Origin: Puniceicoccales bacterium
Lineage (GTDB): Bacteria; Verrucomicrobiota; Verrucomicrobiia; Opitutales; UBA953
Direction: 5' to 3'
Length of the DNA stretch: 64,000 bases
NCBI GenBank assembly: GCA_031256995.1
Contig: JAIRPL010000037.1
Location: forward strand, 1 to 64,000
Made by a program: the position numbers and the translations under genes. A model generated the notes under the pieces. The model saw only the letters and a program-made list of their open reading frames with translations. It did not search any database and was not told where the DNA came from. This document shows positions 23,901 to 41,900 of this stretch, piece by piece (the first letter of the stretch is position 1; each line of letters starts with the position of its first letter).

Positions 23901-26900
23901 CTGGACCGCCTCACCATCGGCGCCGGGAGCCTCTCCGGCGGCGGCGCGGACGGCGTCGCCTTCACCAAGACGGGTGCGGGGGTGCTGGCGCTCTCGGGGG
24001 ACAACACGTTCACGGGCCGGGTCGTCGTCGGGCGCGGCACGCTTGAGATCGGCAGCGGCGGGGATGGGCGGCATGCCCTTGGCTCGCCCGCCACAAACGC
24101 GCTCTGGCTCGGCTCCGCATCCTCGGCCGCCACGCTCTCCGTGCCCTCCGGGGCGGATGCGGCGGTGTCGCTCGGCGGGCGCGAGGTCGTCGTCGGCGCC
24201 GCCGGCGCGGTGTTCGAGGTCGGGCAGGGGCGCGCGCTCTCCATCGGCGGGGCGCTCTCGGGCGACGGTTCGGCGGCCGCCGCCGGCATCGTGATCTCGA
24301 AAACCGGGAACGGGATGCTGGAGATCTCCGGGGACAACTCCCTCTCGCTCCACGGCACCATTGCCGTGCGGCAGGGGGCGCTTTCCATCTCCAGCGCGGA
24401 AAACCTGGGGGCCTCCTCCAACGTGATTCTCCTCGGGAACGACGTGGCGGTGGCCATTTCCACGGGCGGGCTGCGGGTCCCCGGCTCCGGCGTCCTGCGC
24501 CTGGCCAACCCGGTGGCGTTTTCCGGGGCCGGCGGCGTCATCGACGTGGACGGGGCGGCGGGGCGGCTCGTCCTGGACGGCCCCCTGGGGAACGGCGCCG
24601 GACAGGCGACCGCAGGCTCCGCGCGGGCGCTCACCAAGACAGGCGCCGGGACCCTGGTCCTGGCCGCCGACAGCACGGACGGCCTTGGCGTGGACGGCTC
24701 CGGGACCCCGCTGGGCGCCTCGCCCGCCGGCGCGCTGGCCGGGAATGCCGCCGTGGAGCAGGGCACGCTGCTCTTGCTCGCGCCCGGCGTCCTTGGCGTG
24801 GACGGGGCGGGGCAGGGGGAGGCTTTCACGCCGTTCTCCCTCGCGCTCGGAAGCGCGGGCCACACGGGCCGCCTTGACATCGCGGCGGACATCGGCGGCG
24901 GCGGCGCCATCGTGGCTGCATTCACGCCGGAGTCCCCGTTCCAGCTTGGCCGCCGCTCCATCGCGCTTGGCGACGCGGGCGGCGTCATCCACGTGGCGGA
25001 AAACATCTCCGCGGAGCATTCCGGGGCGCTTTCGGGGGGCATGCTCACGAAGGACGGCCTGGGCGTGCTCACGCTGCGCGGCGCCAACGCCGGCCTTGAC
25101 GACGCCGGAAACCCGGTCCCCGCGGGCGCGGCCCACACCGGGGCGGTCCATGTCCGCGAGGGCACGCTGGTGCTGGCCCATGCCGGCGCCGGGGCGGATC
25201 CGCTCGTGGACGCCGCCGGGGTGGGCGCCGTCACGCTTGGCTCGGCCTCGACCTCGGGCGTGCTGCGGGTCGCCGTCTCCGGTGTGCTGGGCAACGATCT
25301 TGCCACGGTCGCCGGCGCGCCTCTCTCCACGCTTGAGATCGCCCCCCATGCGGGCGGCGCGGCCCCGGCGGTCACGCTGCGCGGCGCCAACCTGGGCTTT
25401 TCCGGCCTGTTTGCCGTGGCCCCGGGCGCGTCGCTGGCGTTCGCCTCCGCGGCGGAGATCGGCGGCGCGGGCGGTGTCTCCTCGTTCCTGCTTGGCGCGC
25501 CGGAGTTGAACCCGGACGCGCCCTTGGGCACGCCGGGCGCGCTGGTGTTCGCCCCCGATTTTTCCAACCCCGACGCGGGCGCGCGCACCCTCTCGCTCGG
25601 GGCGTCCCACTCCATCGTGCTGGGGGCATCCGGCGGCGCGTTCCGCGTCGAGGCCCCGGACTCCGGCACGCCGGCGACCCTGGTCCTGGGCGGCGCCGTC
25701 TCGGGAGCCACGCTGGTGAAGACAGGCGGCGGGCGGCTCGTGCTCAACGCGCAGAACAGCTTCCACGGGCTTTCCATCGAGGATGGCGTGGTTTTTGCCA
25801 CGCTGGGCGTGGAGGGGCTTGGCAATGGCGGCTCGCCGCTCTCCCTTGGCGGCGCCTCGACATCGGGCACCCTCGAGACCGCCGGATCCTTCTCCCTCGG
25901 GACGCGCCCGGTCAGCGTGAACGCCGGCGGCGGCGTCCTGCTCGTCCCCTCGGGGGCGGCGGGCTATGACGGCTCGGGCCTCTCCTCGGATTCCACGGCC
26001 GCGGTGCTGGAGAAAAAAGGCGCGGGCACCTTCCGCATCGCCGCCGCGCAGCCCGCGTTCCTCGGTGTGCTCGCCCTTTCCGGGGGCACGACGCGCCTTG
26101 GCGGCGAGGACGCCCTGGCCAACGCCGCCGCCCTGCGCGTGGAGAACGGCGCGACGGCCTTTGCCGAGCGCGCCCAGTCCTTCCAGTCGCTCGTCATTGG
26201 CGAGAACTCGGTTTTCACCTTCGACACCGCCATCGATGCCGCCTCCCGGAACCTGTCCGTCAACGCCCTGGACCTTGGCGGCTCGCTGCGCAACGCCACC
26301 ACGGTGACGGTGCTTTCCCCCGACGCCTCCGACCCCTCGCGGCCGGGCATCCTGACCATCCGCGCCGGGCAGACCGCCGCCCCACGGGACCTCATCCTCG
26401 GGCCGAACACCGTCTTCAACGTGGAGTCGGCCGACGCCGTCGTCACCACGTCCCTTGGCGCCATTTCCTTCCAGGGCCTCGCCTCCGACCCGGCCCATGG
26501 CGGCGCCGACACGCGCACCATCATCAACATCGCCAGCTACAACCACGAGCCGCGCTATGTGATCGCCCGCGCCACGGACATCTCCGGCGGGGGGTTCCGC
26601 GCCACGGTCGCCTTCCGCGACGCCCTCCCGGGCACCCCGGCCATCGCGCTTCCCGCCGCGCCGGACAGGGATCTCTTCCTCTCCGTCGACGCGCGCGTGG
26701 AGCGCTCCGCCACGGGGGGCGCCGAGCTTGTCGTCTCCAGCTCGCTCGTCTGGGAGTCGGTCTCGCCGGGGGCCGCGCACGGCGTCTTCAACATCGGGGC
26801 CAGCCCCGATGGCACGACCCCGGCGACATTCACGCTCGGCGAGATCCCCGACATCCTCGCGAAGGACAACCTGCTCGTGGACAACCTGCTGGCCACGGGG

Positions 26901-29900
26901 ACCGGGCTGGATGGCGACGCCGCCCACAACCCCGACGACGCCTCGGACGCCAACGCCGGAGGCGCGTGGGACGGGCGGACGCTCGTGAAGCGCGGCGTGG
27001 GGACGCTCGTGCTGGCAGGCTCCAACGCCTACACCGGCCGCACCATCATCGAGAACGGGAGCATCCTGGCGCTGCGCGCGGACTCGCTGGGCGCGGCCGG
27101 CGCGGACGGGGTCTGGGCGCCCGTCGTCTTTGACGCCTCGAACGGCGTCCACAGCGGCGGCGGGGACGCCGTGCGCAGGCTGCGCTTCGACATCGAGTCG
27201 CGGCACTCCGGCGGGTTCTCGCGCGACGTCACGGGCGACGGGATCCTCGAGAAAAGCGGCGCCGGGCGTCTTTCCATCTTCGGCGCCCTCTCCCATTCCG
27301 GCGGCACCCGCGTGTATGACGGCACGCTGGCCCTCGCGGCCTCCGGCTCGCTTGGCGGCGCCTTGGTGCTTGATTCCTCCGAGGGCGGCCTGCGCGGGGG
27401 CGCCGGCCAGCCCGCCGCCGGCTCGCCGCGCTTTGACATCTCGGAGAAGGGCGCGGGGGCGGTTGTCCTGCTTGAGTCCGTCTCCGCCGACTTCCGCTCG
27501 GCCCTTCTCCTGGGCGCCGCGACCCTCCAGCTGGGTTCCGCCGGCACGGACGGCGCGGGGGCGGTCGCGGGCGTCATCTCCGGCGCGGGCGGGAGGCTTG
27601 TGAAGGATGGCGCCGGGCTTCTGTCGCTTTCCGGCGCGAACACGTTCACGGGCGGCATGGAGCTTCGCGGCGACGGCTCCATCCACGCCGGCCACGCGTC
27701 GGCCCTCGGCTCGGGCGTCTTTCTTCACGCCGGCTCGGGCGCCCTTGCCATCGCGCCCGGCCTTGCCCTGCGCAATGACATCACCCTGGCCGGCGGTGGC
27801 GCGCGCGAGTTTTTCAATGATGGCGCCGTGAGCCTCTCCGGGAGGTTCACCGTGGAGGATGGCGGCGGGGCGGTGCTCCTGAAGACCGGCGCCGGCGAGC
27901 TGCGCATGGAAAACACGGCCGCGCTCGACGCCCTTGGCCCGGGATCCGTCCTGCGCATCGACGCCGGCTCGGTGTTCCTGGCTGGGTCGCGGCTCGCGGC
28001 ATCCCTTGAGGGCGCCGGCGCGCTGTCCGCCTCGCTGCCGTCAAGCGCCGCCACGTTTGTCTTCAGCGGCCCCGCCGGCGGTTACACGGGGTCGTTCACG
28101 ATGGAGCGCGGGGTGCTCGCGGCCGATGCCGGCACCTCCGCCGCGCTTCGCACCGGCACCCTCCGCCTCTCCCCGGTCTCCACCCTGTCGGTGGGGGAGG
28201 GCGCGTCCGGCGCGCCGCTGGGCGCCGTGGTGGCCAATGGCGGCACGCTGCGGTTCGCGTTCGGGGCGTACTCGCCCGCCGGGCTTCTTGAGGCGGAATC
28301 GCTCGACCTGTCCGCCGGCGTTGTCGCGCGCCTTGAACTCTCGGGGCCGCTCAGCCTTTCCGCCGCCGACCCCGCCGGGCGGAACTTGTTCGCCCTCAAC
28401 GCGGGCAATCCCGCCGCGACGATGCGGCTCGCGTCCGCCGCCCATGTCACCGCGCCGGATGCGCTGGCGAACCCGGGGGCGTCCGTCTCCTGGCTCGACA
28501 CGGGTGGCGCGGATGTCCTGGCCGGGCCTGTCACGCGCGTTGTGACCGACAGCCCCGGCGGCGCGCGCCTTGGCACGGCCTCCATCACCTACACGCCGCG
28601 CCTGGTGGATGACGCCTCGGCCTCCGCCGGCATGGCGCCCGGGATCCTGCTGGACGCCGTGCTTGAGACGCTCACGGCCGAGGCCGGGGCGGTGATCCCG
28701 CTGCGCCTGCCGCCCGGCGCGGACGCCTCGAACGCCGTGCTGCAGGCCCGCCTGCGCGGCGCCGGCGGTTTCGCGTTCAGCGGGCCTGGCGTGGCGACGG
28801 TCGGGAAGGCCGGCGGCCAGAACGACTATTCGGGGCCGACCTCGATCGACGCGGCGACGCTCGTGCTCGGCGCGGATGGCGCGCTGGGGCGCACCTCCTC
28901 CCTCACGCTCACCGGCTCCGCCGTGCTCGACATGGCGGGCGCGAGCCAGGATGTGCGTTCGCTTTATGGCGAGCCGGGCACCGTCCTGCGGCTTGGCGCG
29001 CTGGGGGTCGGCGGCTCCGGTGTCTTTGACGGGCTTCTCGAGGGAGGCCCCGGGGCGTCCATCGTGAAAACCGGCCCGGGCACCCTGGAGCTTTCCGCCG
29101 CAAGCCCGGCCGCGCCGGCGCTCGCCGTGCGGGGCGGCTCGCTTGTGGTCTCCGGGCTGCTTGGCGTGGATTCCCCCGGCGCCACGGACGCCTTCCACGC
29201 GGCGGACATCGTGCTCGACGGCGGCTCGCTGGTCTTTGCCTCCGAGTCCGGGTCGCAGACCCTTTCCGGAAAACTGTCCGCCGGGATGGGCGCCGGCGGC
29301 TCCCTCGTGAAGCGTGGCGGGGGGCGGCTCGCGCTCTCCAATGCCGCGAACACCCACGCGCAGACGATCGCCGAGGCGGGCGTGCTCGCCATTGCCGACG
29401 GCGGCGCCCTTGGGTCCGGCGTGGCGGTGCTGTCGGGGGGCGTGGTGCTGGAGTTTTCCGGGGAGTCCGGGAAATCCTATTCCCATCCTCTTTCCATCGG
29501 CGCGGGCGGGGCGGTTTTTGCGACGCCGGCCTCCGAAGGCCCAGGCTTCTCGGCGGCCTTCTCGGCTGGGATCCTTGGCGAGTCCTCCACCTCCTCGATC
29601 ACCATTGAGGGGCCGGGCGAGGTCGACCTTTCCGGCGCGGACGCCGCCTATGCGGGCGAGACCCTTTTGCGCGGCGGCACGCTCGCCATCGCGCGCGACT
29701 CCAACCTCGGCCAGGGTGGGCGCGTGTTTGACGGGGGGACCCTCCGCCTTTGCGAAGGCGCCGCGCTGCGTTCCACGTGGGTGGCCGCCGGCGGCGGTGG
29801 AGCCATCCTCGTGGATGGCGAGGGCGTCCTGGCGTCCTGGGGCGGCGACATTTTTGCGCGGACCGGGGCCGGCCCCGATCCGGCTCCCGTGACCAAGGGC

Positions 29901-32900
29901 GGCGCGGGGACCCTCGTCGTCACGGGCGAGATCACGGCCCCGTTCCGCGTTGGCGAGGGTGTGCTGGCGGGGACCGGGCGGATCACGGATCCGTCGTTCG
30001 CCGGGGGGGTGGTCATTTCGCCCGGCCTCAATGGGGTGCCGGGCGGGGTGCTCCGCCTTGGCCATGCGGGTGGCGTCGTGGAGCTGGAGGGCGTCACCCT
30101 GCGCCTCCTCCCGGATGCCGGCGGCGGCGTGCTGGCCGTCGAGGGCGACGCCTCCTTCGGCGTCTCCACGCCCAACACGCTGGACCTGCGCGACGCGGCC
30201 GGCGTGGGCGCCGCCAACACACGGCGTGTGATCCTCACGGCCACAGGCTCGCTGCGGCATGGCGAGCTGGCGGCCACGCTTTTTGAATGCCGCGGGATCC
30301 AGCTCAATGACGCGACCTCGCGCCACAAGGCGACGCTCGCCGTCGAGGGCGGCAGCCTCGTGCTCTCCACCTGGGCGGAGGCGTCGGGCGAGATGATCTG
30401 GACCGGCCAGTCCGTCTGGGACAAGGCGGGTGAGGACTGGTTGTACAGCGCGCCGGGGGCGGTCTTCAAGGACGGCGACAAGGTGCGTTTCAACGCCGAG
30501 CACGGCTCCAGGAACGTGGATGTCACAAGCAACGGCGGCGGTGTGCTGGTCGGGCAGATGGATGTCGAGAGCGGCGAATGGCGTTTTGACGGCGGGAAGA
30601 TCGCCGGGACAAATGTCCGCACTTCCGCCCCCGATGTCACGGGTGACGGCTGGCTTTATGTCCATGCCGGGGCCTCCGCCGCGTTTGGCAACGAGCTTGA
30701 ATACGTGGGCGGGGGGATCTCCGGGGTTGTCGTCTTCGAGCGCGCGGTCCGGTTTGACGTCCCCCTGCGGATCCAGCGCGGCGGCTCGGCGCATCTTGAC
30801 CAGATCTCCACGCTCGACACGCCGGGTGTCCAGCTCGATGGCGAGCTTGTCGTCACGCGCTCGTCCGGCCGCTCCCTCACGCTTTCCGCGCCGCTTTCCG
30901 GCTCCGGGTCGCTGGTCCTTCTGGGCGATGGCGACGGGGTCTCCGGCGGCGTGATTGTCCTTTCCGAGCAGAACACGCACACCGGCGGCACGACCGTCTC
31001 CGGCGGGGTGACCCTGTCGCTCCCCTCGGACATGCCCCTTGGGCTTGGGGTGGCCCGCCTTGACGGGGCGTCCCTGGAGCTGTCCGGGACGTCCTACGCC
31101 AAGGCGTGGGAGCTTGGCCCGGCGGGCGGCGTCTTGCGCGTCGCCTCCGCCGACGCCTCCGTCCTCTTCGCGTCCCCGCTTTCACGGGTTGGCGAAAGCT
31201 CCGACGCCTCGCACCCCCTTGCCAAGGAAGGGCCTGGCGCGTTGCGCATCACCTCCCCGGCGGATGTCGGCCCGGTTGCCGTGCGCGGTGGAAAGCTTGT
31301 GCTGGCCGCGCCGGTCGGCGCCGTCACGGACGCCGGGGCGCGCCATGCCGCGCCGCTCACCCTTGCCGCCGGCGCCGTGCTGGAGGTTGAGAACGCCGCG
31401 TCGCAGACGTTTTCCGGCCCTGTCACCGGCCCGGGCCTGCTGCGCCATACCGGCTCGGGGGACCTTGTCCTTGGCGACGCCTCCTCCGCCGCCGGGGCGG
31501 CCGTGGCTGCGGCGGTCAGCCTTGCCTCGCTGGAGAACCAGCGCGGGCTGCTCGTGCTCGGCGCGCCGGTGTCGATCGCCCGTTCGCTGGACAATGCGGG
31601 CACGCTTGAGGCGCTCGCGCCCGTCGTGCTTGACCCCGCGGCCGTCTCCGGCGCGGATTCCGGGGCCGGCTTCACGGAGGCCGCCACCCTGGCCAACTCC
31701 GGCCGGTTTTCCGCGCCCGCGCTCCGCTCCACCGTGCCGCTGATGAACACCGGGACCCTTGCGCTTTCCGCCGGCTCCGAAGCGGGGGCGACCGGGCACC
31801 TTGCCCTGGATGCGCAGGCCCCGCTCGTGAACAATGGCGATCTGGAGGCCCGCACCCTTTCCGCCGGCGCCCCGCTGCTCAACAACGGCTCGCTCTGGCT
31901 TGGGGCCGCGGCGGATCCCGCCGTCGAGGCGTCCATCGGGACGCCTGCGGGCCACCTCTCCCTCACGGACGCCGCGCCGCTGACCAACAACGGCACCTTG
32001 CGCCTTGTCTCATTCGACATCCACGGCGGCCTTTTCAATGCCGGGATCGCCGAGGTTTCCGGTTCGGCCAGGCTGGCCTCGGCCTCGGCGGTGGTGGGCA
32101 GCAACAACTCCGGCCGCCTTTCCGTCGCCGGTTCCCTCGGCGTCACGGGCAATTTTGACAACTCCGGGACCCTTTCCGCCGCCGATGCCTCCGTCTCGGG
32201 CGGCACGCTCAGCAACGGGGGGACCGTGGTGATTTCCGGCTCCCTGGCCGCCAGCGTCCGCAATGAAGGGATTTTGCGGGCAGGCTCGCTTGCGGGCGAC
32301 CTGGAGAATGCCGGTTACGGCGCCTCGGCGACGCTCGGCGGCGTCTCGGGGGATGTCCTCAACCGCGGGCGCTACCGCGCGCTTGGCGCCGTCTCCGGCT
32401 CCTTTGCCAATCACGACAACGCCACGCTGAACCTCGATTCCAGCCTGGCGGGCCACTCCATCTCCGGCGCGCTCGCCAATTCCGGCTTCATCCACTTCGA
32501 CAGTTTCGGGCAGGAGCTTCGCGCGGGTTCGCTCTCCAATGCCGCGCCCGGCTCGCCCGGCCACTATTCCCTGGAGATCGTCCTTGGCGACACGGCCGCC
32601 AGCGACCGCATCACGCTGCCGCAGGGCGCCGCCGTCACCGGGACGCACATTTTCACCATTCGCACGGTTCGTGGGGGTGAGAACGCAACCAAGTCGACGA
32701 CACACGCCCTTGCCACGCCGGAGGCCGACTATTCCCGCGCGACCCTGCGGCTGGCCGCGCCCGTGGAGGCGGGCTTGTACAGCTACGGGCTTGTTGACGA
32801 ACGGACCCCTGTCCTGGGCGCCCTCGGCTACTCCAGCGCCGCCAAGGCTGCCGTGAATTCCGCCACCGCGCCCTCCACGGCATGGTTCTCCCAGCTGGAC

Positions 32901-33800
32901 AACATCCACTCGCGCCTTGGCGAATTCCGCGCCCCCGCCGCGCCGGATGCCGCCACGCCGGAGGCGCCCGCCCAGCGCGCCTCCAACGCCGTCTGGCTGC
33001 GAGCCCACTCGGCGCAGATCAACGCCAGCCCGGCGCAGGAGGGCCTCGATCCCTATCGCCAATACCAGCACGGGGCCGATGTCGGCTATGACCATGCCTT
33101 TGCCACGCATTCCGCCGCGCGCCTTTATCTCGGCGTCGGCGCAGGCTACCAAATGACCCGCGCGGACGTCCGTGCGTCGGCCTTGTCGCGTGCCGAGACC
33201 GCGTCGGCGACCGTCGGCGCCTATGCCACATGGGTCCACGACGCCGGCTGGTTTGCCGACCTCTACGCCAAGGGCCAATACACGAGCGCGGACATTTCCG
33301 CGCCGTCCGTTCGCGCCGATTACGCCACGACCCTCGTTGGCGCGTCCATCGAGCTGGGGAAACGTTTCACGTTTGGCGCCGGCTGGTATCTCGAACCCGC
33401 CGTCCAGTTTGCCTATTCCCGCCATCTTGGCACGGATTACACCCTGCCCGGCGTCGATGCTGCCGCGCCGGGTGTCCCCGTGCACCATGCCGACTCGGAC
33501 ACCTACCGCTTTGTGGAACGCCTTCGCGTCGGGAAATTCCATTACCTTGGCGCGCGTTTTGGGCACATCCAGCCCCACCTCGAGGCAGCCCTGGAGCGGC
33601 AGGACAGCGATGGCGGCCAGATTCGCGCCGGGGATGAGCGCTTCAATCCCACGACGGATGGTTTGCGGGGGCATTTTGGGGCCGGTCTGTCCTGGCACCC
33701 GACCGCCTTCACGCAATTCACGCTTTCCTACGCCTACACGTTTGGCGACGCCTACCGCCGCCCCTATTCCATCTCCATCTCGGCACGCACCTCCTTCTAA
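17955..33800 (+). CDS. giant autotransporter (5281 residues), beta-strand-repeat passenger and C-terminal barrel
   Basis: A type V secreted surface protein. The signal peptide covers residues 1-52 (LSRAALFAATALGASAVF, ending PQALAA). The passenger is a very long predicted beta-helix with about sixteen autotransporter-associated repeats of the form KTGAGTLxLSGxNTYTG. Two W/GD modules (about residues 1797-1875 and 4147-4220) are shared with the PEP-CTERM protein encoded downstream. Residues about 4515-4870 form a stalk of roughly fourteen short LxNxGxLxA repeats (PLVNNGDLEA, NFDNSGTLSA). The last 270 residues are an autotransporter barrel starting at VWLRAHSAQ and ending in aromatic SARTSF, the signal for BAM-mediated insertion. 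The frame is uninterrupted. The start is the ATG at 17955; an in-frame TTG at 17937 is less likely. Adhesion or surface coating is inferred. Confidence 0.93.
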   Translation: MPIPKPAFLFAQPARPGRTPRALLSRAALFAATALGASAVFSPALAPQALAATVGQLTGSASRVIAASDVLEVTGATHFRSSGAGYTSAAYAGDIYSGVLSGTGAFVLSDGTLRLDAKQTFSGGITVTGADSVLIFNTQKDAFNNVAGNAIRVLDGGTLVFGKNDTTNSYPAMPIYLYGASDTVRSSLENSYQYNKLGALFMKNGDLVIAANGYSDAKWRSYSLNGVVTVQAEPDATAENPTVSRIYTKEGVLDPNIHLGANSHGTTTTFMVEANALLDVSSILVNRADNLAASNLTKEGAGKMLITGLNTYTGTTIVSGGILQVGDASNPDPAARVDAGSISTTSGVTIAAGAVVRFDIGTASPLHNSTFGKSISGAGVFQKDGPGKLTIAVQNLPPIFDVLGGHLALTGTDKTTVRTISVMGTAEVPATLEFVGTKILGGNHWMLSSSESEPNLANTKLYLGPYATLLFATGKTNEQAIPYIWMRGGTIAVNNGGSSSSGFEAATVPPVVVVERPAGATGTDVWTSYIIDGNTTNQSAVHPYRNGTTFQVAENAALSVQANLILGSNNTQTTGITKTGAGTLILSGANGWGNLYKGGTTINAGTVELDYTRAGSPATNIIATGTPLTLSGGSLVVKGKAGQNGIVETFSGTTSTAQTNSTIRIEKGAATAITLALGTLAVNGALRLEGADLPRYNSGYTIGTTNYTTTTSAGANDGATRLKGVVLGGAWASTLASGAPSGSYYIVPLSSTTRISVHQGMLVHSTGASTDRSYEIYDGGGTPGAVTISAGAETTIESLLFSATTAGTINNTSCIRVTSGEIVKTADSAMLTIGLAPGDGSTNKIVPERGNVAGTVKLVNNATDPDSLLVVNSAISNPGSNPASLSVSGTAPVVLAGKNDFKGSLTILGPAPVIIKGDNGGHTSSTAASFTGPVTIAPGATLRFSNVPGQTVQCYYNTFAIGAGGTLQVDTDAVTYFLQGAISGEGALVKTGSGGLGISNTPNDTFTGGTYIYGGYIGINCSGPTSSIKGTVYIFEGASLQLNASDATGHGNSDTNPTGQIDHIVLNGGTLLWNNNGNQTFSFNKGGLEMTAGTFRQSTTGGRVSIRAGTPIITHATSAPSRIGPMNFDLRSNDLRFIVEKGTVPVSNGISVDLLMEAVIRDYPGFNNVIQKYGDGLMRLTGTSQYTGGTVINAGTISTNNTAGLGTSPVTLRAGAVFHYDGATPFTLNASTSAPIGNNAAGSSLAGNNPGDYGVIDVSAGSTVVLNTTLGGGAAQSRILKRGEGTLVIGGAGDNNGGHIILDAGRLELNKSANFVAGGPKATGFGDHDFIVNGGLAILTGGAVSEANPGNGMQFYKDTKWQINGGSVDLNGRSVALASLGSTGPGGIVTNASGAGLSNLWFTNNIVNGYHDNETYAGRITGNVGIVIAAGSNRIQGLSGVNTYTGATQITSGTLLLSGAGKLGATPVTVGAAGRLLLEAPGAIGSIASLDVTTAGAKLEIAASQTLSAAYSDASGAGILFSGTGAPVLTFATGATVNAAVSGPGVLAFSGGTSTLANTGNAHTGGTRVLGGATLLFANPAVFGPAGVTLDNGTLSPAGASALNLAATSVTVNAGGGTLNAGAADVSLGAVSGAGTLRNAGSGTASIRSFTSGMIAGGKWLLADGAVLAGAVVSGPGAVASLGIAGSPAGTASLGTLSTPQGVSFHTRLSGGDVSDRYAVTSGAVAFGAGNFVRINTALAGDYTIATAPGGFSGHDNPANLLLVVGAESLGNTHNLADFSVKNSTELHLDLKIVSVPLVWGGDSQNAWDAVQENRPWEDAVSPVAGNFFARGDRVFFTAAGAQSPAVTVGAGVGVSDMFVTGGAYTFSGQGITGSAALATGGAHAFGGAGADSARGALEVSGAGTVADFSGTPLSFAGGVSVAGGARLRLSNGAQVSATPSLTVGGASGVAGILEAGGAIVLNPSTQVSMGLAGAEFSLPGALDRLTIGAGSLSGGGADGVAFTKTGAGVLALSGDNTFTGRVVVGRGTLEIGSGGDGRHALGSPATNALWLGSASSAATLSVPSGADAAVSLGGREVVVGAAGAVFEVGQGRALSIGGALSGDGSAAAAGIVISKTGNGMLEISGDNSLSLHGTIAVRQGALSISSAENLGASSNVILLGNDVAVAISTGGLRVPGSGVLRLANPVAFSGAGGVIDVDGAAGRLVLDGPLGNGAGQATAGSARALTKTGAGTLVLAADSTDGLGVDGSGTPLGASPAGALAGNAAVEQGTLLLLAPGVLGVDGAGQGEAFTPFSLALGSAGHTGRLDIAADIGGGGAIVAAFTPESPFQLGRRSIALGDAGGVIHVAENISAEHSGALSGGMLTKDGLGVLTLRGANAGLDDAGNPVPAGAAHTGAVHVREGTLVLAHAGAGADPLVDAAGVGAVTLGSASTSGVLRVAVSGVLGNDLATVAGAPLSTLEIAPHAGGAAPAVTLRGANLGFSGLFAVAPGASLAFASAAEIGGAGGVSSFLLGAPELNPDAPLGTPGALVFAPDFSNPDAGARTLSLGASHSIVLGASGGAFRVEAPDSGTPATLVLGGAVSGATLVKTGGGRLVLNAQNSFHGLSIEDGVVFATLGVEGLGNGGSPLSLGGASTSGTLETAGSFSLGTRPVSVNAGGGVLLVPSGAAGYDGSGLSSDSTAAVLEKKGAGTFRIAAAQPAFLGVLALSGGTTRLGGEDALANAAALRVENGATAFAERAQSFQSLVIGENSVFTFDTAIDAASRNLSVNALDLGGSLRNATTVTVLSPDASDPSRPGILTIRAGQTAAPRDLILGPNTVFNVESADAVVTTSLGAISFQGLASDPAHGGADTRTIINIASYNHEPRYVIARATDISGGGFRATVAFRDALPGTPAIALPAAPDRDLFLSVDARVERSATGGAELVVSSSLVWESVSPGAAHGVFNIGASPDGTTPATFTLGEIPDILAKDNLLVDNLLATGTGLDGDAAHNPDDASDANAGGAWDGRTLVKRGVGTLVLAGSNAYTGRTIIENGSILALRADSLGAAGADGVWAPVVFDASNGVHSGGGDAVRRLRFDIESRHSGGFSRDVTGDGILEKSGAGRLSIFGALSHSGGTRVYDGTLALAASGSLGGALVLDSSEGGLRGGAGQPAAGSPRFDISEKGAGAVVLLESVSADFRSALLLGAATLQLGSAGTDGAGAVAGVISGAGGRLVKDGAGLLSLSGANTFTGGMELRGDGSIHAGHASALGSGVFLHAGSGALAIAPGLALRNDITLAGGGAREFFNDGAVSLSGRFTVEDGGGAVLLKTGAGELRMENTAALDALGPGSVLRIDAGSVFLAGSRLAASLEGAGALSASLPSSAATFVFSGPAGGYTGSFTMERGVLAADAGTSAALRTGTLRLSPVSTLSVGEGASGAPLGAVVANGGTLRFAFGAYSPAGLLEAESLDLSAGVVARLELSGPLSLSAADPAGRNLFALNAGNPAATMRLASAAHVTAPDALANPGASVSWLDTGGADVLAGPVTRVVTDSPGGARLGTASITYTPRLVDDASASAGMAPGILLDAVLETLTAEAGAVIPLRLPPGADASNAVLQARLRGAGGFAFSGPGVATVGKAGGQNDYSGPTSIDAATLVLGADGALGRTSSLTLTGSAVLDMAGASQDVRSLYGEPGTVLRLGALGVGGSGVFDGLLEGGPGASIVKTGPGTLELSAASPAAPALAVRGGSLVVSGLLGVDSPGATDAFHAADIVLDGGSLVFASESGSQTLSGKLSAGMGAGGSLVKRGGGRLALSNAANTHAQTIAEAGVLAIADGGALGSGVAVLSGGVVLEFSGESGKSYSHPLSIGAGGAVFATPASEGPGFSAAFSAGILGESSTSSITIEGPGEVDLSGADAAYAGETLLRGGTLAIARDSNLGQGGRVFDGGTLRLCEGAALRSTWVAAGGGGAILVDGEGVLASWGGDIFARTGAGPDPAPVTKGGAGTLVVTGEITAPFRVGEGVLAGTGRITDPSFAGGVVISPGLNGVPGGVLRLGHAGGVVELEGVTLRLLPDAGGGVLAVEGDASFGVSTPNTLDLRDAAGVGAANTRRVILTATGSLRHGELAATLFECRGIQLNDATSRHKATLAVEGGSLVLSTWAEASGEMIWTGQSVWDKAGEDWLYSAPGAVFKDGDKVRFNAEHGSRNVDVTSNGGGVLVGQMDVESGEWRFDGGKIAGTNVRTSAPDVTGDGWLYVHAGASAAFGNELEYVGGGISGVVVFERAVRFDVPLRIQRGGSAHLDQISTLDTPGVQLDGELVVTRSSGRSLTLSAPLSGSGSLVLLGDGDGVSGGVIVLSEQNTHTGGTTVSGGVTLSLPSDMPLGLGVARLDGASLELSGTSYAKAWELGPAGGVLRVASADASVLFASPLSRVGESSDASHPLAKEGPGALRITSPADVGPVAVRGGKLVLAAPVGAVTDAGARHAAPLTLAAGAVLEVENAASQTFSGPVTGPGLLRHTGSGDLVLGDASSAAGAAVAAAVSLASLENQRGLLVLGAPVSIARSLDNAGTLEALAPVVLDPAAVSGADSGAGFTEAATLANSGRFSAPALRSTVPLMNTGTLALSAGSEAGATGHLALDAQAPLVNNGDLEARTLSAGAPLLNNGSLWLGAAADPAVEASIGTPAGHLSLTDAAPLTNNGTLRLVSFDIHGGLFNAGIAEVSGSARLASASAVVGSNNSGRLSVAGSLGVTGNFDNSGTLSAADASVSGGTLSNGGTVVISGSLAASVRNEGILRAGSLAGDLENAGYGASATLGGVSGDVLNRGRYRALGAVSGSFANHDNATLNLDSSLAGHSISGALANSGFIHFDSFGQELRAGSLSNAAPGSPGHYSLEIVLGDTAASDRITLPQGAAVTGTHIFTIRTVRGGENATKSTTHALATPEADYSRATLRLAAPVEAGLYSYGLVDERTPVLGALGYSSAAKAAVNSATAPSTAWFSQLDNIHSRLGEFRAPAAPDAATPEAPAQRASNAVWLRAHSAQINASPAQEGLDPYRQYQHGADVGYDHAFATHSAARLYLGVGAGYQMTRADVRASALSRAETASATVGAYATWVHDAGWFADLYAKGQYTSADISAPSVRADYATTLVGASIELGKRFTFGAGWYLEPAVQFAYSRHLGTDYTLPGVDAAAPGVPVHHADSDTYRFVERLRVGKFHYLGARFGHIQPHLEAALERQDSDGGQIRAGDERFNPTTDGLRGHFGAGLSWHPTAFTQFTLSYAYTFGDAYRRPYSISISARTSF

Positions 33801-33802
33801 AA

Positions 33803-34100
33803 CGGGGATTTCCGCCGGCCGTTCCTGGGAAAGTCAGGGCGTGCCGGCGCGGTTCATGCCCTCCTTTAGAAACCGGATTTCCGCCGGCCTTGCCCTCGTG
33901 AGGCCGCGTGGAAAGTGGCGTGTTCACCCCGTGCTGTCCCCGGTCCCGTCGCGGCTCATGGCCCCCCGCAGGACCGCGTGGAATGCGGAGTGTTTACCGG
34001 CCCTTCTGACGCCGGGATTCCGCCAGCCGTGTCCTCTTGAAGGTGCAAAAGCCGCGAACCCGCTCCCAGTCTTCTGGAACCGGGATTCCCGCCGGCCTTG
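33803..34100. repeat. degenerate 69-base tandem array, about five units
   Basis: The motif CCGGGATTTCCGCCGGCC recurs, with changes, at 33803-33820, 33873-33889, about 33938-33955 (weak), 34012-34027 and 34080-34097, a spacing of 68-71 bases. A second motif, GCGTGGAAxGxGGxGTGTT, recurs 69 bases apart at 33907 and 33976. The units diverge throughout and there are no cas genes, so this is not a CRISPR array. It begins three bases after the autotransporter stop codon. Confidence 0.65.
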
Positions 34101-34150
34101 CCCGCCCGCGCTTTTTTTGGGGGGCGCTTGCGCATTCCGGAACCTTTCGC

Positions 34151-34305
34151 CCTGGCGCTGGCACTGCCGTTGGCGCTGAAGCTGGCGCTGCTGTTGGCGT
34201 TGAAACGCGGCGGTTTCGGTGAAACCGCCCTGCCACGGAACTGCCGTTGGCGCTGGTGTTGGCGCTGGCGCGGTTGTTCCGGGCGATTTGGCACTGGCGC
34301 TGCCG
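34151..34305. repeat. GGCGCTG-rich short repeat tract with a perfect hairpin
   Basis: TGGCGCTG or close variants (TGGCGTTG, GGCACTG) recur eight or more times at irregular 6-12 base intervals. Inside the tract, GGCGGTTTC (34209-34217) and GAAACCGCC (34221-34229) form a perfect 9-base hairpin with a three-base loop. It could act as a terminator-like or boundary structure for the convergent surface-protein genes, although no T-run follows it. Confidence 0.55.
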
Positions 34306-34568
34306 TAGCGCGGGTTTCCAAACCTGCTCCTTGAAGTCTGCCCTATTCCCAACGCAGAAAAGGGGCGACCAAGACGCAAACCTGCTCTCCAAACGCCTTT
34401 CGTTGGCATATACCCTCCAAAGCGGCAGAAGACTGCCGCATTCCGGCCAGCCGCGCGCCAAGGCCGCACTCAGCGGCAGCACAAGTGGCGTCGGCAGCGG
34501 GCCGGCTCGCGAATACACGCAATGCCTTGGAACGCGGCGGGGGAGCAGGTTTGGAAACCCGCGCTACG
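34304..34568 (-). repeat. dispersed repeat with inverted ends, copy B (inverted, expanded)
   Basis: The outer ends are GCGGGTTTCCAAACCTGC near 34309-34327 and its complement near 34544-34562. The left part, to about 34375, is the reverse complement of the right half of copy A (complements of TTGGCCGCCCCTTTTT and GGGCAGGCTTCAAGG). The interior then diverges and is longer than in the other copies, so this is either a composite of two copies or an element carrying an insertion. Confidence 0.65.
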
Positions 34569-34629
34569 ACGGAGGTGGGCAGGATTGTTGGTCTCACCCG
34601 GCGCCCGGCGTGGCCGCTGGTGTTGCTCT

Positions 34630-34765
34630 CGGTGCTGGCTTTGGTGCTGGTTTTAGCCGTTTTGGCTTTGGCGGCCTTGGCCGTTTTGGCGGCGTTAGCC
34701 TCGGCTGTTTTGGCAGCCTCGGCTTTGCTGGCCTTGGCCGTTTTGGCGGTGGTTTTGGCGTTTTC
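34630..34765. repeat. GCCAAAACGGCC-type imperfect tandem repeat
   Basis: On the minus strand, units built from GCCAAAAC, GGCCAAGGC and GGCTGCC repeat about every 12-18 bases. The tract spans the end of the PEP-CTERM gene, so the last 20 or so codons of that protein, beyond the basic PEP-CTERM end, are encoded by repeat DNA. Confidence 0.65.
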
Positions 34766-37700
34766 TGGGGCGCAGGAGGGCCAGGGCGAGGGTGGCAAGG
34801 GCGCCGCAGAGGGCGTAGGTGGAGGGTTCGGGGACGAAGGGGATGGCGTAGGTGGTGACCAAGCGCAGGCCTCTGGTGGTGACGCCGCCCTGGGTGCTGG
34901 TGAATTCCTCGACGCGGAATTTGTAGTCGGGGTCCGCGTCGGTGCCCTTGCCAACGAAGGAGATGTCGCCCACGAGGCTCGAGAGGTCGGCGATGAGGTC
35001 GCCGTCGGTGGTGGCGAGGATGGTGTGGGTGTCGCCTTTGAGGATTTTCCCGCCGACGCCGGTCAGCACGATGGCGGTGGCGAGGGTGACGTCGGAGTTG
35101 ATCCTGATGTCGCCGTGGGCGAGGAGGATCTGGTCGTTGGCGTTGCCGCTGATGTCGATGAGGAGGTGCGCGTTGGAGGAAAGGATGAGGTCTCCGCCAG
35201 CGGTGGCGTTGAATGTGAGGGTGCCGATGCGGCCGTAGGCGGTGCCGGGGGAGATTTTGCCGTCGATGGTTGCGCCGCCGCCGCCGGCGCTGACCTGCCC
35301 GGTCCCGGCGAGGGTACCGTTTTCGCCGACGGTGACGGCGGTTGCGGCTTGGGTGATGTTGGCGAGGACGACGGTTCCGCCGATAATGCTGAATTCCCCG
35401 GCGTAGGCTTGGTTCGCGGCGAGGGTGAGGGTGCCTGTGCCGGTCTTGTAGAGGTTGCCGTCGCCGCTGATGGTGCCGCGGTAGGTGTAGGGCGTGTCGC
35501 GCTTGAATTCGACGTAGCTTTTGCCGCCGACTTGGACGCCCTGCCTGTCGTCTGTTCCGAGCCTGCCACCGTCGGCGAGAATGAGCCTGGAGGAGATGGA
35601 GTCGATGTTCAGGGCGCCTCCGTTGGTGATGTTGAGTGGGGCGGCGAGGGTGACGTGCGCGCCGCCGGAGATTTGCAGGTCGCCGCGCAGGATGGTGTCG
35701 CCCTGGAAGATCGCGTCGGCGTTCGAGATGGTGGCGCCGTGGAAATCGACGGGGACCTGGAATATGGCGGTGGCACTATTTTCGACATAGAGCATGCCGT
35801 CTGTGAGCGGCGCATAGGTGCTGGTCGCGGCGGTGTGGTAGGTCGAGCTGCTGGTGCTGCCGCGGATTTCGCCGCCGGTGAATGTGAAGGTGGCGTCGCG
35901 CACACGCATGCGGGCGACGGTGACGCCGCCCTGGTCCACGGCGATGTCATGGGTGCCGGCGGTGCTTGTGAAGCTGACGAGGTCGCCGTGAAGGAAGGTG
36001 TTTGTGGGGGTGGTGTTTCCCGAGTCGACGGTGACGTTGCCACTCCAGTTGGGCGCGGTCTGGGTCGAGAGTTCACTCTTCCAAACGCCCGCGCCGTCGG
36101 CCCCGGTCCACGTGTTTTCGATGTTTCCCCAGATGGTCTCGACGTGAAGATAGAGTTTGTTCGCCTTGGAGTCCGGGGCGTCGGGGTTGTGGTCGCGCAG
36201 CTCCCCGACGACGTAATTGCGGCCGCCCGGCGGTGGTGGCGTTGCGGCGCCGACCGGGGTCACGGGGTTGTTGTTGATGGTGAGGTTTGCCGTGGAAAGA
36301 AATCCCGTTGTGGCGACGGAGTGGTCCGGCAGGGCGGTGGCGTCGAGGAGGTAGTAATTCCCCACGAATCCAACATCTCCCACGATCTCGATTTTGTTGG
36401 CGCCAGGGAGGACATATGAGTCCGGGCCGCCGATGTGCGGTTTATTTCCGCCCTCGAGCCTGAGCATTGCCACGGTGCCTCCGGGTGTGGGCGTTATTCC
36501 AGTTCCAAGTTCAAAGCGCAGGGTGGAATTTTGCTCAAAGCACAGATTTCCGCTTGCGAGTACGTTGTTTGTTCCTTCAATGGCGAGGTTTGTGCCAGAG
36601 CAGAGGACGTAACTGCCAAACGACGTCGGAGAATTCTCATCGTAAGTTTGGTAACGCGCCCCCCCGGACAATTTGTGGGTGTTGCCAGGGCCGCTGACAT
36701 CTGTATACCCCGGAATAAACGCCCGCGCATGCTCCCCAATCTGCGCAAAGGTGCCGTTCTCGTAAGATCCGATATAAACTTTATAACCAGACGTATTCGA
36801 TGGTGATTTTACGGCTTTGATGCCATCATAGAGTTCGATGGTGGTAGCAACATCTACGAGATCGCAGATTTGGATAGTGGCATCGTGGCTTGTTGAACTT
36901 TCGTCTTCCTTGAGATAGATCGCGCGTTGGATCTGGTTTGTGCCTGTGCCGACAGTGTTGTTCTGAATTCTGAAAACATCGCCAGGTTTGGATCCCGATC
37001 CTAAATATAAGTTAACTTCATCTTTCCATTCCATGTGAATGGCTCCCCCTGTTTCCATAGAGGCTCCGTCCGTCAATGCGGCTTTGTTTCCAGAGATTTC
37101 GCCGCCATCATCGGGGGAGATAGACAGTAAACTATGGCTTGACGAATTCATGTATATCGCACCACCCGCCAGCCCCGCTTGATTGTTTGTAATGAGCATC
37201 TTCCCAGCGGATTCTAAATAAACCCATGGATTTCGGGTAGCATGTGGAGCGGGAGAAATCAGGGAGATTGCACCACCGTATTCAGCAGCATAATTTTCCT
37301 TGATGACCATCTTCTGATCACCAAGCTGAGGACTCGATGAACGGGTTGATAATTTTAGTTGAATATTGCCATAAGTGTTTGTCGTTAAAGCGGATTCTAT
37401 TGCAATCGCCCCGCCGATTCCAGCGGAATTTCCGGAGACAAGGATGCTTGCCGCGTTAACATCCAATAAAATAATTGATCCATTTGCAGCGGAGGTGAGG
37501 GTGCGGAGGTAGAATGCCCCGCCGCTTTTGTTTACGGGTGATCCACTTTGGGCGGCATGGTTGTTGACTACGGAAAAAAGGCTACTCGCATTTATCACAA
37601 CATTTGCGTCGGTTCCATTTGCGTAAATCGCCGCGCCACTGCCACTATTTGACGTGTTGTTTGTGAAGGAAATGTTCCCTGCCGAGATCTGCAATGGACG

Positions 37701-38219
37701 GGTGCTACGTGTGATGGCGTCGATGGCACCCGTGCCACCACCGCTGGCAGTGCCGTGATTGTTATTGAAAATCAGATCGCCACTGCGAATTTCGAAACCC
37801 TCGGGGGAAGTTTGAACGATATCACCAAGGATGCTGACCAAGTTGCCAGCGATGGTCGCCGCACTGCTTGCCGATGGATTGGAGAATGTGAGCGTTGATC
37901 CGCTGCCAAGCTCGATTTTCCCGAGATAGCCTACCGCGATTCTGTTCGTTCCATCTGTATTTCCAAATGTGATGGCCGCCCCGGAATCGATCCTAAGGGC
38001 AGGAGCGTGTTCAATCGTTGTCCCGTGGAAAATTATTTCACTGAGTTTTGGCCGTTCGCTACCAATTGTGAGGTCCAAGGAGTTCGTCCCCACAGTGCCG
38101 TTGGCTTGAATGGATAAAACATCGTAATCGCTTAGTGTCACACTTGCCCCGAGGGCTTTATTTGCGTTAAAAACGAGAAAGATTCCAGCTGCGACAAGAA
38201 GCGCTACCCCCCCCCCCAC
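34695..38219 (-). CDS. PEP-CTERM protein with Pmp-like GGAI repeats; start disrupted by a poly-G tract
   Basis: As read here, a GTG start inside a G-run gives 1174 residues. Hydrophobic VALLVAAGIFLVF is followed by a cleavage-like KALGAS. Residues about 100-400 carry six or seven repeats resembling chlamydial Pmp units (GNSAGIGGAI, NYAAEYGGAI, NNQAGLAGGAI). A W/GD module (around 36115-35860) matches two in the giant autotransporter, and a KTGTGTLTLAANQAYAG repeat follows. The C-terminus has the PEP-CTERM signal FVPEPSTYALCGALATLALA plus RPRKR, for exosortase-type processing. The natural start appears to be the ATG at 38302, with a basic leader, but it reaches a stop at the tract; one more G (or two fewer) restores frame. 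The 5' half is less GC-rich than the 3' half. The product is probably surface-exposed; its function is unknown. Confidence 0.8.
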   Translation of the reverse strand: MGGGVALLVAAGIFLVFNANKALGASVTLSDYDVLSIQANGTVGTNSLDLTIGSERPKLSEIIFHGTTIEHAPALRIDSGAAITFGNTDGTNRIAVGYLGKIELGSGSTLTFSNPSASSAATIAGNLVSILGDIVQTSPEGFEIRSGDLIFNNNHGTASGGGTGAIDAITRSTRPLQISAGNISFTNNTSNSGSGAAIYANGTDANVVINASSLFSVVNNHAAQSGSPVNKSGGAFYLRTLTSAANGSIILLDVNAASILVSGNSAGIGGAIAIESALTTNTYGNIQLKLSTRSSSPQLGDQKMVIKENYAAEYGGAISLISPAPHATRNPWVYLESAGKMLITNNQAGLAGGAIYMNSSSHSLLSISPDDGGEISGNKAALTDGASMETGGAIHMEWKDEVNLYLGSGSKPGDVFRIQNNTVGTGTNQIQRAIYLKEDESSTSHDATIQICDLVDVATTIELYDGIKAVKSPSNTSGYKVYIGSYENGTFAQIGEHARAFIPGYTDVSGPGNTHKLSGGARYQTYDENSPTSFGSYVLCSGTNLAIEGTNNVLASGNLCFEQNSTLRFELGTGITPTPGGTVAMLRLEGGNKPHIGGPDSYVLPGANKIEIVGDVGFVGNYYLLDATALPDHSVATTGFLSTANLTINNNPVTPVGAATPPPPGGRNYVVGELRDHNPDAPDSKANKLYLHVETIWGNIENTWTGADGAGVWKSELSTQTAPNWSGNVTVDSGNTTPTNTFLHGDLVSFTSTAGTHDIAVDQGGVTVARMRVRDATFTFTGGEIRGSTSSSTYHTAATSTYAPLTDGMLYVENSATAIFQVPVDFHGATISNADAIFQGDTILRGDLQISGGAHVTLAAPLNITNGGALNIDSISSRLILADGGRLGTDDRQGVQVGGKSYVEFKRDTPYTYRGTISGDGNLYKTGTGTLTLAANQAYAGEFSIIGGTVVLANITQAATAVTVGENGTLAGTGQVSAGGGGATIDGKISPGTAYGRIGTLTFNATAGGDLILSSNAHLLIDISGNANDQILLAHGDIRINSDVTLATAIVLTGVGGKILKGDTHTILATTDGDLIADLSSLVGDISFVGKGTDADPDYKFRVEEFTSTQGGVTTRGLRLVTTYAIPFVPEPSTYALCGALATLALALLRPRKRQNHRQNGQGQQSRGCQNSRG
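38207..38217 (-). promoter_or_regulatory. 11-G homopolymer, putative phase-variation switch
   Basis: On the coding (minus) strand, eleven consecutive G follow CTCGGGT and precede TAGCGC. From the upstream ATG at 38302, the frame reads through 27 sense codons to CTC GGG, then TGG and three GGG codons, and hits TAG. With twelve or nine G the same frame enters VALLVAAGIF and continues for about 1170 codons. Slipped-strand change of the tract would therefore turn the gene on and off. A miscalled homopolymer length is the main alternative. A TTGACA box lies upstream at 38335-38340, without a clear -10 partner. Confidence 0.65.
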
Positions 38220-38302
38220 CCGAGAATTTTATACGAAACTCCGTGTTTGTGACGGATTTCTGTGTTATTTGCTGAGTTTTCGGGGAAGGTTCTTGAATTC
38301 AT

Positions 38303-38958
38303 GGCATACCCCGAAAAAATAAGAACTTAATACGTGTCAAGGGCCTTTTCACATTTTTTACATTTTTTTTTGGAGTGCCCCATTTTCCACGGTTTGCCGC
38401 CGCTGCCGCCGCCACCTGTGCTGCCGCCTGCCGCCACCTGCCGCCGCCGCACTGCCGTCGTAGCGCGGGTTTCCAAACCTGCTCCCCCGCCGCGCCCCCG
38501 CTTGGCTGCGGATCCGCCTGTCGCTGGGGCTATGCGCCCCTGCCGCGCCCCTGTCGCCGTCGCACTGCCGCCGTAGCGCGGGCTTCCAAGCCTGCTCTCA
38601 AGTCGCTTTTTGGGAGAGGGGACAGGCCAACGAAAAGCGGCTGGATCTGGTTCCCCCCTTGGCCGCCCCTTTTTTGCGTTGGGGTGGGGCAGGCTTCAAG
38701 GAAGCAGGTTTGGAAACCCGCGCTACTGTGTCGTGCCACCGTGCTGCGCGTTATGGGCCTGCGGTGCGGCGGCAGAGGGCAGGGTCGCAATACGCGAAGT
38801 GCCTTGGAGTGCGGCCGGCGAGCAGGTTTGGAAACCCGCGCTACTGTGCTGTGCTACCGTGCTGCGCCACTGTGGCTGCGGCGCCGTGCTCGCGCTACTG
38901 TGCTGTTCTACCACGCTTGCGCTGCTGTGGCTTGTGCGGCGCTGTGCCGCGCGGGGTG
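38303..38958. other. gene-free repeat region between PEP-CTERM gene and helicase
   Basis: No gene is recognised. Besides dispersed repeat copy C (38571-38726), single ends of the same repeat occur at 38456-38482 and, inverted, at about 38820-38844. The rest consists of short GCCGCC- and GTGCTG-type low-complexity repeats. The promoter of the PEP-CTERM gene must lie at the left edge, where the DNA turns AT-richer. Confidence 0.55.
38571..38726 (+). repeat. dispersed repeat with inverted ends, copy C
   Basis: A 156-base copy in the same orientation as copy A. Its left end is TAGCGCGGGCTTCCAAGCCT; then come CTCAAGTCGCTTTTTGGGAG, CCAACGAAAAGCGG, TTGGCCGCCCCTTTTTTGCG, GGGGCAGGCTTCAAGG and the right end AGCAGGTTTGGAAACCCGCG. 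It is about 20 bases shorter than copy A within its interior. Confidence 0.75.
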
Positions 38959-41900
38959 TCAGGCGTTGGTGCGGGTGGAGGCGATTGCGGCGAGTAGTTT
39001 TGCGAAGGTGCCGTCGGGGTCGGCGAACCAGTCCGGGGACCAGACGCGGTGGAGGTTCCAGCCGAGGCCGTTCAGGACGATGGCGCGTAATTTGTCGCGG
39101 TCGCGCGCGGTGGCGGCGTCGAGGTAATGGCGGCCGTCGCATTCGACGCCGAGGATGTGTTTTTCGGGATGCGCCGGGTCGGCCACGGCGAGGTCGATGC
39201 GGTAGGAGGAGGCCCCGGCGTTTTCGGTGACGAGGAATCCCGCCTCGCGGATGCGCGCGGCGAGATAGGCGGTGAAGGATGGGTGGGCGGTGCCGGGGGA
39301 GGTTTTTCCGGCGATGGATCCGGTGCCCGCTGGTTGGACTGGGGCTTGAAGCGGAAGCCGTCCGCAGGAGGTTTTTTCGGCGATGGGTCCGGCGTCCGCG
39401 GGCGCGTTGAGGCGGGCGGAGGACCCTGCCTGGGCGTGGGCGAGGAAATTGCGGAGATCGTGGACGCCGCGCGCGCGGGTGGTGGTGAGGGCGGCGTCCA
39501 GGTCATCGCCGGTGATGCTGCTGAAGACGTGGATCTCGTGCTTGGCGCGGGTGATGGCGACGTTGAGGCGGCGCTCGCCGCCCTCGCGGTTGAGGGGGCC
39601 GAAGTTTGTGGTGACACGCGGCGCGGTGGTGGCGCCGCCGGGGGCGGAGGCGTTGCGGGTTGCGGCGCGGGGGCGCTTTTCGTCGTAAAGCCCGTAGCCG
39701 ATGGAAAACAGGATGACGTCGCGTTCGTCCCCCTGGACGTTTTCGAGATTTTTGACGAAGACAGGCTCGCCCTCGACCGGGGGGCTGGCCCCGAAGTGCC
39801 GCTCCAAGGCCGGGTTGGCGCGCAGGGCCTCGTCGAGCAGGTTTTCGACCAGCCGTTGCTGGGCGAGGCTGAAGGTCACGATGCCGTAGGAGCGCGCCGG
39901 GCCGGAGGTGTCGGAGAGGCGCTGGGTGAGGAATGCGACGAGCCGGGCGGCCTCGACGCGGTTTGTGCGCGTGGCGGATTTGTCATAGCGGGCCTCGGGC
40001 AGGTGGTGGAGGCGGATTCCGCCCGCCGCCGGCGAGGTGTCGGCGGAGGGGAATGTGAGCAGGGTGTTGCCGTAATAGCGCTGGTTGCTGAAGGCGATGA
40101 GGCTTTCGTGGCGGCTGCGGTAGTGCCATGCGAGGCGGCGCGAGGGAAGGCCGGAGGCGGAGAGTTCGTCGAGGATGCTTTCGAGGTCCTCGGTACCGCC
40201 GGCTTCATCCTCGTCATCCGCGTCGTCGTCGGGGGCGGCGGTGGCGCTGTTGAAGAAGGAGGTTGGCGGGAGCTGCCTGGGGTCCCCGACGATGATTGCC
40301 TGCCTGCCGCGCGCGATGGCGCCGATGGCGTCCCAAACCGGGATTTGGGAGGCCTCGTCAAAGATCACGATGTCGAATTGGCGGTGGGAAGGCTCCAGGT
40401 ATTGGGCGATGGACAGGGGCGACATCAGCACGCACGGTTTGAGGGCGGCGAGCAGGTTCGGGGTTTTCGCGAGGAGCTGCCGGACGGGGATGTGGCGGAT
40501 TTTTTTCGCAAGCTCGCGGTTGAGCAGCGCGCGCTCGGCCTTGAGGGCGGCATCAGCGCCGTCTCCGGCACAGGCTGCCGCGGCGCTGGCGGCGAGTTTC
40601 GCGTGAATGAACTCCCTGGCGAGCCGCTCCAGCTGCGAGTCAAGCTCGCGGAAACGGCGCACCTGCCCGTCGTGCTCGCCCCCGAGGAAGGCGCGCAGGG
40701 GCGGGGAGGCGTCGAGCAGGGCGGTGAGCAGTTGACGGTGAAAGGCATCCTCGAGGAGGGCGGGGATCTCGCCGGCGGGGGTCCCGAGTTTTTCCACGCG
40801 GGAGACGAGGGGTTGCAGGCCCGCGGCGATCGCCGCCGCGCGGATTTTCTGCCATGCGCACCATTCGCGGATTTTCGGCCACGCGGCGGAAAGCCCGGCG
40901 GCAAAGCTCCGGGCGGCGGCCGGCATCGCGGCGAATGTGGAGAGCGCGTCGGGGCGCAGGCAGGCGGCCCCGGCGAAGGCCTTGAGTGACTCGAGGTGGC
41001 TGGACGCCGCGTCCCGGTGGGCGGCAAGGAGCGGCTTTATGGCGGCCCTGGCGGCGGGTGTGGCGAGCGCGTTGGCGAGCGCGGGGCGCCAGGCTTTTCC
41101 GGGGTGCGCCGCATGGTCGGGCGCGGGGGCGGCCGCGGCCTCGAGGGTGTCCAGCGTGGAGTGCAGTTGCGCGCCCCAGGCGATGGCCCGTTCGATGTCC
41201 GGGAGGGAAGGCTCGGCGGAGTTCCACAGGCCGCCGAGCAGGGCCGCCGTGCGTGAATTGGCACGCAGCGCCTGCTTGATTTTTTCGATGCGCACGGCCG
41301 CCTCGATGGCGAGTGACGTTTCCTTGGCGGAGGGGGTCGTGTTCATGGAAGGGAGGCGCGCGGCACGGAGCCTGCGGCGGAATTTCCATGAATGGAAGAG
41401 GCGGGCGCCCACCCATCTGGCGCGCACGGATTCCCACTCGGAGGAGAGGGCTTCCGGGCCGGGGTCTGCGAGTTTCGCCTCGTCAAACGCGAGGGAGCGC
41501 AGCCGTGCGCGGAGGGTGTCGCGCTCGGCCGCGAGGGCGCCGGCGGCTTCCAGGCATGCCGCGGTGCTGGCCCACGGCTCCATGAAGAAGGCCGGGCCGG
41601 CGGGCACGGCGTTTTCCAGGAGGGCGTCGAGTCCGATGAACGCGACGGCCTCGCGCGAGAGGGCCGGGGGCTGGCCGGGCGTTTTCGCGCCGTCAACCGC
41701 CCGGGGCGTTTCCGTGCCCGGAGGGGTGCCGGAGGCGTCGGGGAATGGGTGTCCGAGGGCGTTGCGAAGGGAGCTTGTGGCCGCGAGCAGGGCATCGGCG
41801 GCGTTGGCGAGGGCGTTGGCGAGCGGCAGTGTGGCCTCGGCCCACAGCGGGGAGTAATCATCGCAGGCGAGCGGGGTGAGCGGATGGCCGGGGAGTGGCG

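Follow-up and report, generated by a model that had tools for sequence, protein, structure and literature searches.

The window, a 64,000-nucleotide stretch of DNA from a Puniceicoccales bacterium, contains a putative surface-protein gene on the minus strand, reading from position 38302 to position 34695. On the plus strand positions 38207-38217 read CCCCCCCCCCC, so the coding strand carries a run of 11 G, directly preceded by GGGT (38221-38218). An earlier note had placed this run between an ATG leader and the core of a signal peptide, and the sequence at 38217-38207 confirms that arrangement. The ATG at 38302 encodes MNSRTFPENSANNTEIRHKHGVSYKILGWGGG, which is followed by TAG (38206-38204). 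Translation thus bears out the claim that the leader ends immediately after the tract. Lengthening the tract by one base, to 12 G, creates a frame of 1202 codons that runs through VALLVAAGIFLVFNANKALGA without a break. A tract of 9 G is equivalent and, as had been proposed, either length would restore the whole protein. Coordinates of the features are collected in Table 1.

Table 1 Features of the poly-G-bearing surface-protein gene and its upstream region
Feature	Position	Strand	Basis
TTGACA hexamer, possible promoter element	38335..38340	-	Sequence; upstream region and leader 88% identical to C6
ATG leader MNSRTFPENSANNTEIRHKHGVSYKILG(W), basic n-region, ending in GGGT	38218..38302	-	Sequence; near-copy in C6, MNTRTFSENSTNNAEIRRKHGVSYKIL
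Run of 11 G, the putative slippage switch	38207..38217	-	Sequence; C42 paralog with 18 G at the same place
TAG that ends the leader frame when the tract has 11 G (assembled sequence: off)	38204..38206	-	Sequence
Hydrophobic signal-peptide core VALLVAAGIFLVFNANKALGA, in frame with the leader if the tract has 12 or 9 G	38145..38207	-	Translation
Surface-protein body (beta-strand-repeat passenger), open for about 1170 codons	34695..38206	-	ORF; paralogs with 38-40% identity overall
Best of three Pmp-type repeats (TIGR01376)	37611..37679	-	17.4 bits, cut-off 15
Autotransporter-type beta-strand repeat (TIGR02601 / PATR)	35364..35456	-	26.6 bits, cut-off 19.85
PEP-CTERM-like tail VPEPSTYALCGALATLALALLRPRKR	34761..34835	-	TIGR02595, 19.4 bits, cut-off 16 (genome search)

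As assembled, the sole start for the 1174-codon body is a GTG that forms part of GGGTG11. After it, the nearest in-frame starts (GTG at codon 27, GTG at codon 43 and TTG at codon 48) each fall 3' of the hydrophobic segment. The start available to the assembled gene is as poor as the earlier note had described. The body nevertheless stays open for about 1170 codons, though out of frame with the ATG. At 11 G, the tract lies above the threshold of 9 applied to the Neisseria phasome (PMC5953494), and a change in its length joins or separates the start and the body of the gene.

The TTGACA hexamer upstream of the leader is without a convincing -10 box. A consensus promoter scan found nothing matching the conserved TTGACA region and did not pick the hexamer. 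The PEP-CTERM gene is flanked on both sides, at window positions 38440-38960 and 34100-34600, by G+C-rich intergenic repeats (GCAGGTTTGGAAACCCGCGCTAC and relatives), and segments of this type are also present upstream of a related leader on contig C6. Convergent with the PEP-CTERM gene is an autotransporter-like gene of 5287 codons, which occupies positions 17937-33800 of the plus strand without interruption.

The encoded protein has a C-terminal PEP motif, a hydrophobic helix and a basic end, with about 20 residues beyond the basic cluster. The tail was recognised in the genome search (Table 1); on the whole window protein, hmmscan gave TIGR02595 a score of 12.2, under the cut-off of 16. The earlier note had also described Pmp-like repeats. 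TIGR01376 matches weakly (Table 1), and the Pfam Pmp-repeat score is 20.0 against a cut-off of 20.6. No autotransporter barrel domain was found in the window protein with Pfam or NCBIfam, so it is not classed as a Pmp; family membership was rejected on account of the absent barrel and the PEP-CTERM-like C-terminus. The genome to which the window belongs (G000) encodes 16 PEP-CTERM tails. Despite this, no exosortase or archaeosortase was detected in G000, an assembly that is 89.6% complete. An exosortase is present in all eight congeners. Given the completeness of the assembly, the exosortase gene is probably missing from it.

Other G000 genes share parts of this arrangement. All sequences compared here are consensus MAGs, in which tract lengths are approximate and are unreliable above all near contig ends. 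The closest intact relatives of the window gene are on C42, C73 and C29. In the C42 paralog, the leader MNMNSRNRFPKKGQFAAQARVYERNSRKQ is followed by 18 G and then by NSFSALRSLLIAFGGVAALAPQGVRAD; the gene is in frame and encodes 1471 aa. Its tract sits between the basic leader and the hydrophobic segment, the place occupied by the tract in the window. The C73 paralog has an ordinary start with no tract. The PEP-CTERM gene on C29 has a decayed copy of a leader of the type found on C51, C71 and C72, also with no tract. At the left end of C6, a near-copy of the window upstream region and leader (88% identity) runs into about 23 G, and the contig soon ends. A second leader family, located at the ends of C51, C71 and C72 (C59 is similar), runs into 10-22 G. 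On C26, a stretch of 20 C lies 103 bases from the contig end in the leader of another PEP-CTERM gene, which is one base out of frame. The C stretch is interrupted in a relative of this gene on C55.

Many G000 contigs break 60-120 bases beyond a long tract, as would happen if reads were lost or in conflict at such sites. Leaders without a body number at least five (C6, C51, C59, C71 and C72), and PEP-CTERM bodies without a leader also number at least five (C4, C5, the start of C26, C60 and C64). Such orphans are what genes split at or close to a tract would leave behind, and the leaders may pair with the bodies.

How much of this could arise by chance depends on tract length and position. With a G+C content of 66%, a stretch of 64 kb should contain 0.15-0.23 runs of at least 11, and a genome 6-9. 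Words of 8 G in the window show no excess over shuffled sequences. Hence, the 11-G run by itself is weak evidence. Its position, unlike its presence, is remarkable. Judged from the assembled sequences, chance does not explain the repeated occurrence of tracts at this position in paralogous leaders. Runs of at least 15 are expected 0.05-0.08 times per genome, and G000 is clearly in excess. Those distant from contig ends include at least the tracts on C42 (18), C48 (16), C59 (15) and C70 (15); the census covered searched patterns and tract-bearing stretches, and its counts are lower bounds. Pure-G contig ends of 33-88 bases (C8, C15, C22, C24, C48 and C55), which inflate poly-G counts in G000, were set aside because they probably arose in sequencing or assembly.

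We compared these tracts with those in related genomes. Tracts of at least 12 are frequent in five of the eight congeners (63 matches in G003, 49 in G002, 20 in G004, 16 in G008 and 6 in G005), some of the matches being contig-end artefacts. Outside the genus such tracts are rare, with 0-5 per genome. The trait is patchy rather than genus-wide, because two congeners have many PEP-CTERM genes and one long tract each (39 genes in G006 and 21 in G007). No relative of the window protein was found in 37 related genomes at E<=1e-30 or in the contig scan, and an exact search for the leader in viral contigs found none. The window locus was not found in other strains; tract lengths of 11 to 23 were compared among the paralogs and the leader family of G002.

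G002 is a congeneric Opitutales MAG with about 14 related leaders (MKNTSxETRR...DATSALNC), all of which lead into a long poly-C/G tract; on contigs that extend past it, a signal peptide and a repeat passenger come next. The tract is an assembled poly-C stretch in eight cases. Three of these leaders are in frame (16, 19 and 11 C) and five are out of frame (20, 18, 15, 23 and 17 C). Long tracts are in excess at the 5' ends of PEP-CTERM genes in this genome: 14 of 40 tracts of at least 12 are found there, compared with 0.6 expected, a difference for which the binomial value is not to be taken literally as the test ignores the relatedness of the genes. Among the 30 PEP-CTERM frames that reach 300 codons, 12 have a 5' tract. 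A codon-position test for purifying selection showed no enrichment of change at third positions in the leader family. Selection on the leader peptide is thus unsupported, and the evidence for translation of these leaders consists of the lack of stops and the in-frame examples.

We consider it likely that the G tract in the window is a hypermutable simple-sequence (contingency) switch and that it belongs to a battery of such switches, found in G000 and in some of its congeners. Briefly, slipped-strand mispairing would add or remove single G residues. Tract lengths divisible by three (9, 12 or 15) would let the ATG leader read on into the signal-peptide core, so that the Pmp-like surface protein with its PEP-CTERM tail is produced and exported. 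With any other length, translation that begins at the ATG would stop early, as predicted at the TAG that follows 11 G. This off state would be expected to yield no exported protein, because nothing between the tract and the signal core could serve as a start. With a battery of surface genes switched by poly-G or poly-C, each cell would display a random subset. We infer slippage in living cells, loss of the protein in the off state and a benefit from surface diversity. The earlier note had read the tract as a phase switch, and the paralog, the near-copy leader and the congener family, all known as consensus sequences, support this. Comparison of tract length among relatives, which it had also suggested, gave 18 G in frame on C42, about 23 G on C6 and mixed frames in G002.

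The 11-G off state may be genuine, or it may be a consensus error. On the latter account, the real tract would invariably have 12 (or 9) G and the gene would never be off, the assembled off state being an artefact. The locus comes from a MAG, tract lengths are uncertain and many contigs break just past long tracts, all of which speak for such an error. However, it covers at most the window locus and not the recurrent variable tracts in paralogs and in the congener; furthermore, a perfect run of 12 G would remain mutable. We consider it unlikely that consensus error explains the locus. Pure compositional noise in a 66% G+C genome fits the number of runs of at least 11 expected per genome and the unremarkable 8-G counts, but is hard to reconcile with tracts of 18 and about 23 G at the same position in related leaders or with the strong enrichment at PEP-CTERM 5' ends in G002. 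We give it almost no weight.

Two further explanations accept an off-frame tract as genuine. The tract could be fixed, with slippage of RNA polymerase or the ribosome yielding a constant low level of protein and no heritable switching. Long homopolymer runs can promote transcriptional slippage, and expression of this kind would also keep the body open. Yet in-frame paralogs exist (C42 and three in G002), and all three length classes occur within one gene family. Slippage during expression is accordingly given a low probability, somewhat below that of a consensus error. Alternatively, the gene could be a pseudogene with a frameshift in its leader, its function being left to other paralogs. The lack of a good start as assembled is in keeping with this, as is the C29 relative with its decayed 5' end. 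Against decay, about 1170 codons are free of stops, and the repeat and sorting features are conserved; we regard a pseudogene as improbable, more so than slippage in expression. The window feature is real, and it is most likely one of several switches in a poly-G/C phasome that comprises multiple genes in this Opitutales genus.

Comparable switches are known in other bacteria. The tracts of Neisseria pilC and opa lie in or near the region encoding the signal peptide. Poly-G/C (pilC) or pentamer (opa) tracts in the reading frame switch these surface proteins by frameshift, and the pilC tract ranges over G9-20 (PMC5953494). The window tract is likewise within the 5' coding region of a surface gene, but it separates a 28-residue leader from the hydrophobic core. 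The phylum is different, the proteins are unrelated and slippage, demonstrated in Neisseria, is inferred for the window gene. Within the same PVC superphylum, poly-G tracts in pmp genes of Chlamydia psittaci keep the frame in one assembly but disrupt it in a second assembly of that strain (PMC3323650). Long poly-G in a repeat-rich surface-protein family is thus common to both systems. In contrast, chlamydial Pmps end in an autotransporter barrel, whereas the window protein has a PEP-CTERM-like tail and a weak match to the Pmp repeat. By analogy, translational phase variation, as in Neisseria pilC and probably in Chlamydia pmp genes, appears to be the best reading.

A closer relative, Akkermansia muciniphila, also belongs to the Verrucomicrobiota. 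Long G repeats are described in two of its capsule genes, for which phase variation by slippage is suggested (PMC3048395), a likeness to the window gene. A second report places its PEP-CTERM genes near invertible DNA (PMC11892184). As far as these texts go, the Akkermansia PEP-CTERM genes are tied to inversion switches and not to homopolymers, unlike the window gene, and fewer tracts are reported. A search of an open-access library gave no paper that connects homopolymer switching with PEP-CTERM proteins. Homopolymer switching is a known trick; for PEP-CTERM proteins it has, as far as we could find, not been described previously. If true, our reading would add PEP-CTERM surface proteins of putative gut-symbiont Verrucomicrobiota to those subject to homopolymer phase variation. 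It would suggest that slippage-driven surface diversification matters beyond pathogens, the usual subjects of such studies. A warning also follows: PEP-CTERM families in MAGs that break at such tracts would be undercounted or called pseudogenes.

The earlier note had described a single switched gene. Its account of the anatomy of that gene stands, while the system appears to be broader. In G000, a type III DNA methyltransferase gene (PF01555 and PF18273; ORF L123:2507-4603, minus strand) has a 15-G tract (G000:C70:22752-22766) close to its 5' end and, as assembled, does not share the frame of the upstream ATG. Similarly, a 15-C tract (G000:C59:18944-18958) lies about 8 codons past the ATG of an acyltransferase gene (PF01757; ORF L076:10921-12129, plus strand), in frame as assembled. 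Type III methyltransferases and acyltransferases are classes well known for phase variation. The C70 gene is a candidate phasevarion and the C59 gene a candidate phase-variable acyltransferase. We see an even chance that some putative termite-gut Opitutales possess a genus-level phasome. This would comprise dozens of PEP-CTERM or repeat-passenger genes under poly-G/C control, together with the type III methyltransferase (as a possible phasevarion), the acyltransferase and genes with poly-C further upstream, perhaps acting via a leader ORF or attenuator.

In this second layout, poly-C lies about 100-240 bases 5' of a PEP-CTERM gene and is followed by hairpin-like sequence, with conserved flanks. 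It was found in G002 on C53, C79 and C110 (L327, L334 and L339) and in G008 on C99 (L189). The G008 leader has relatives in L184 and L186. One idea is that the tract lies in a leader ORF whose frame would decide passage through an attenuator. G000 also contains long C tracts about 150-200 bases 5' of secreted-protein starts (G000:C56:73-95 and C62:27947-27971). These precede a terminator-like hairpin (CCCAGC..GCTGGGTTTTT), and a homologous copy without the tract is present at C15:3564-3684.
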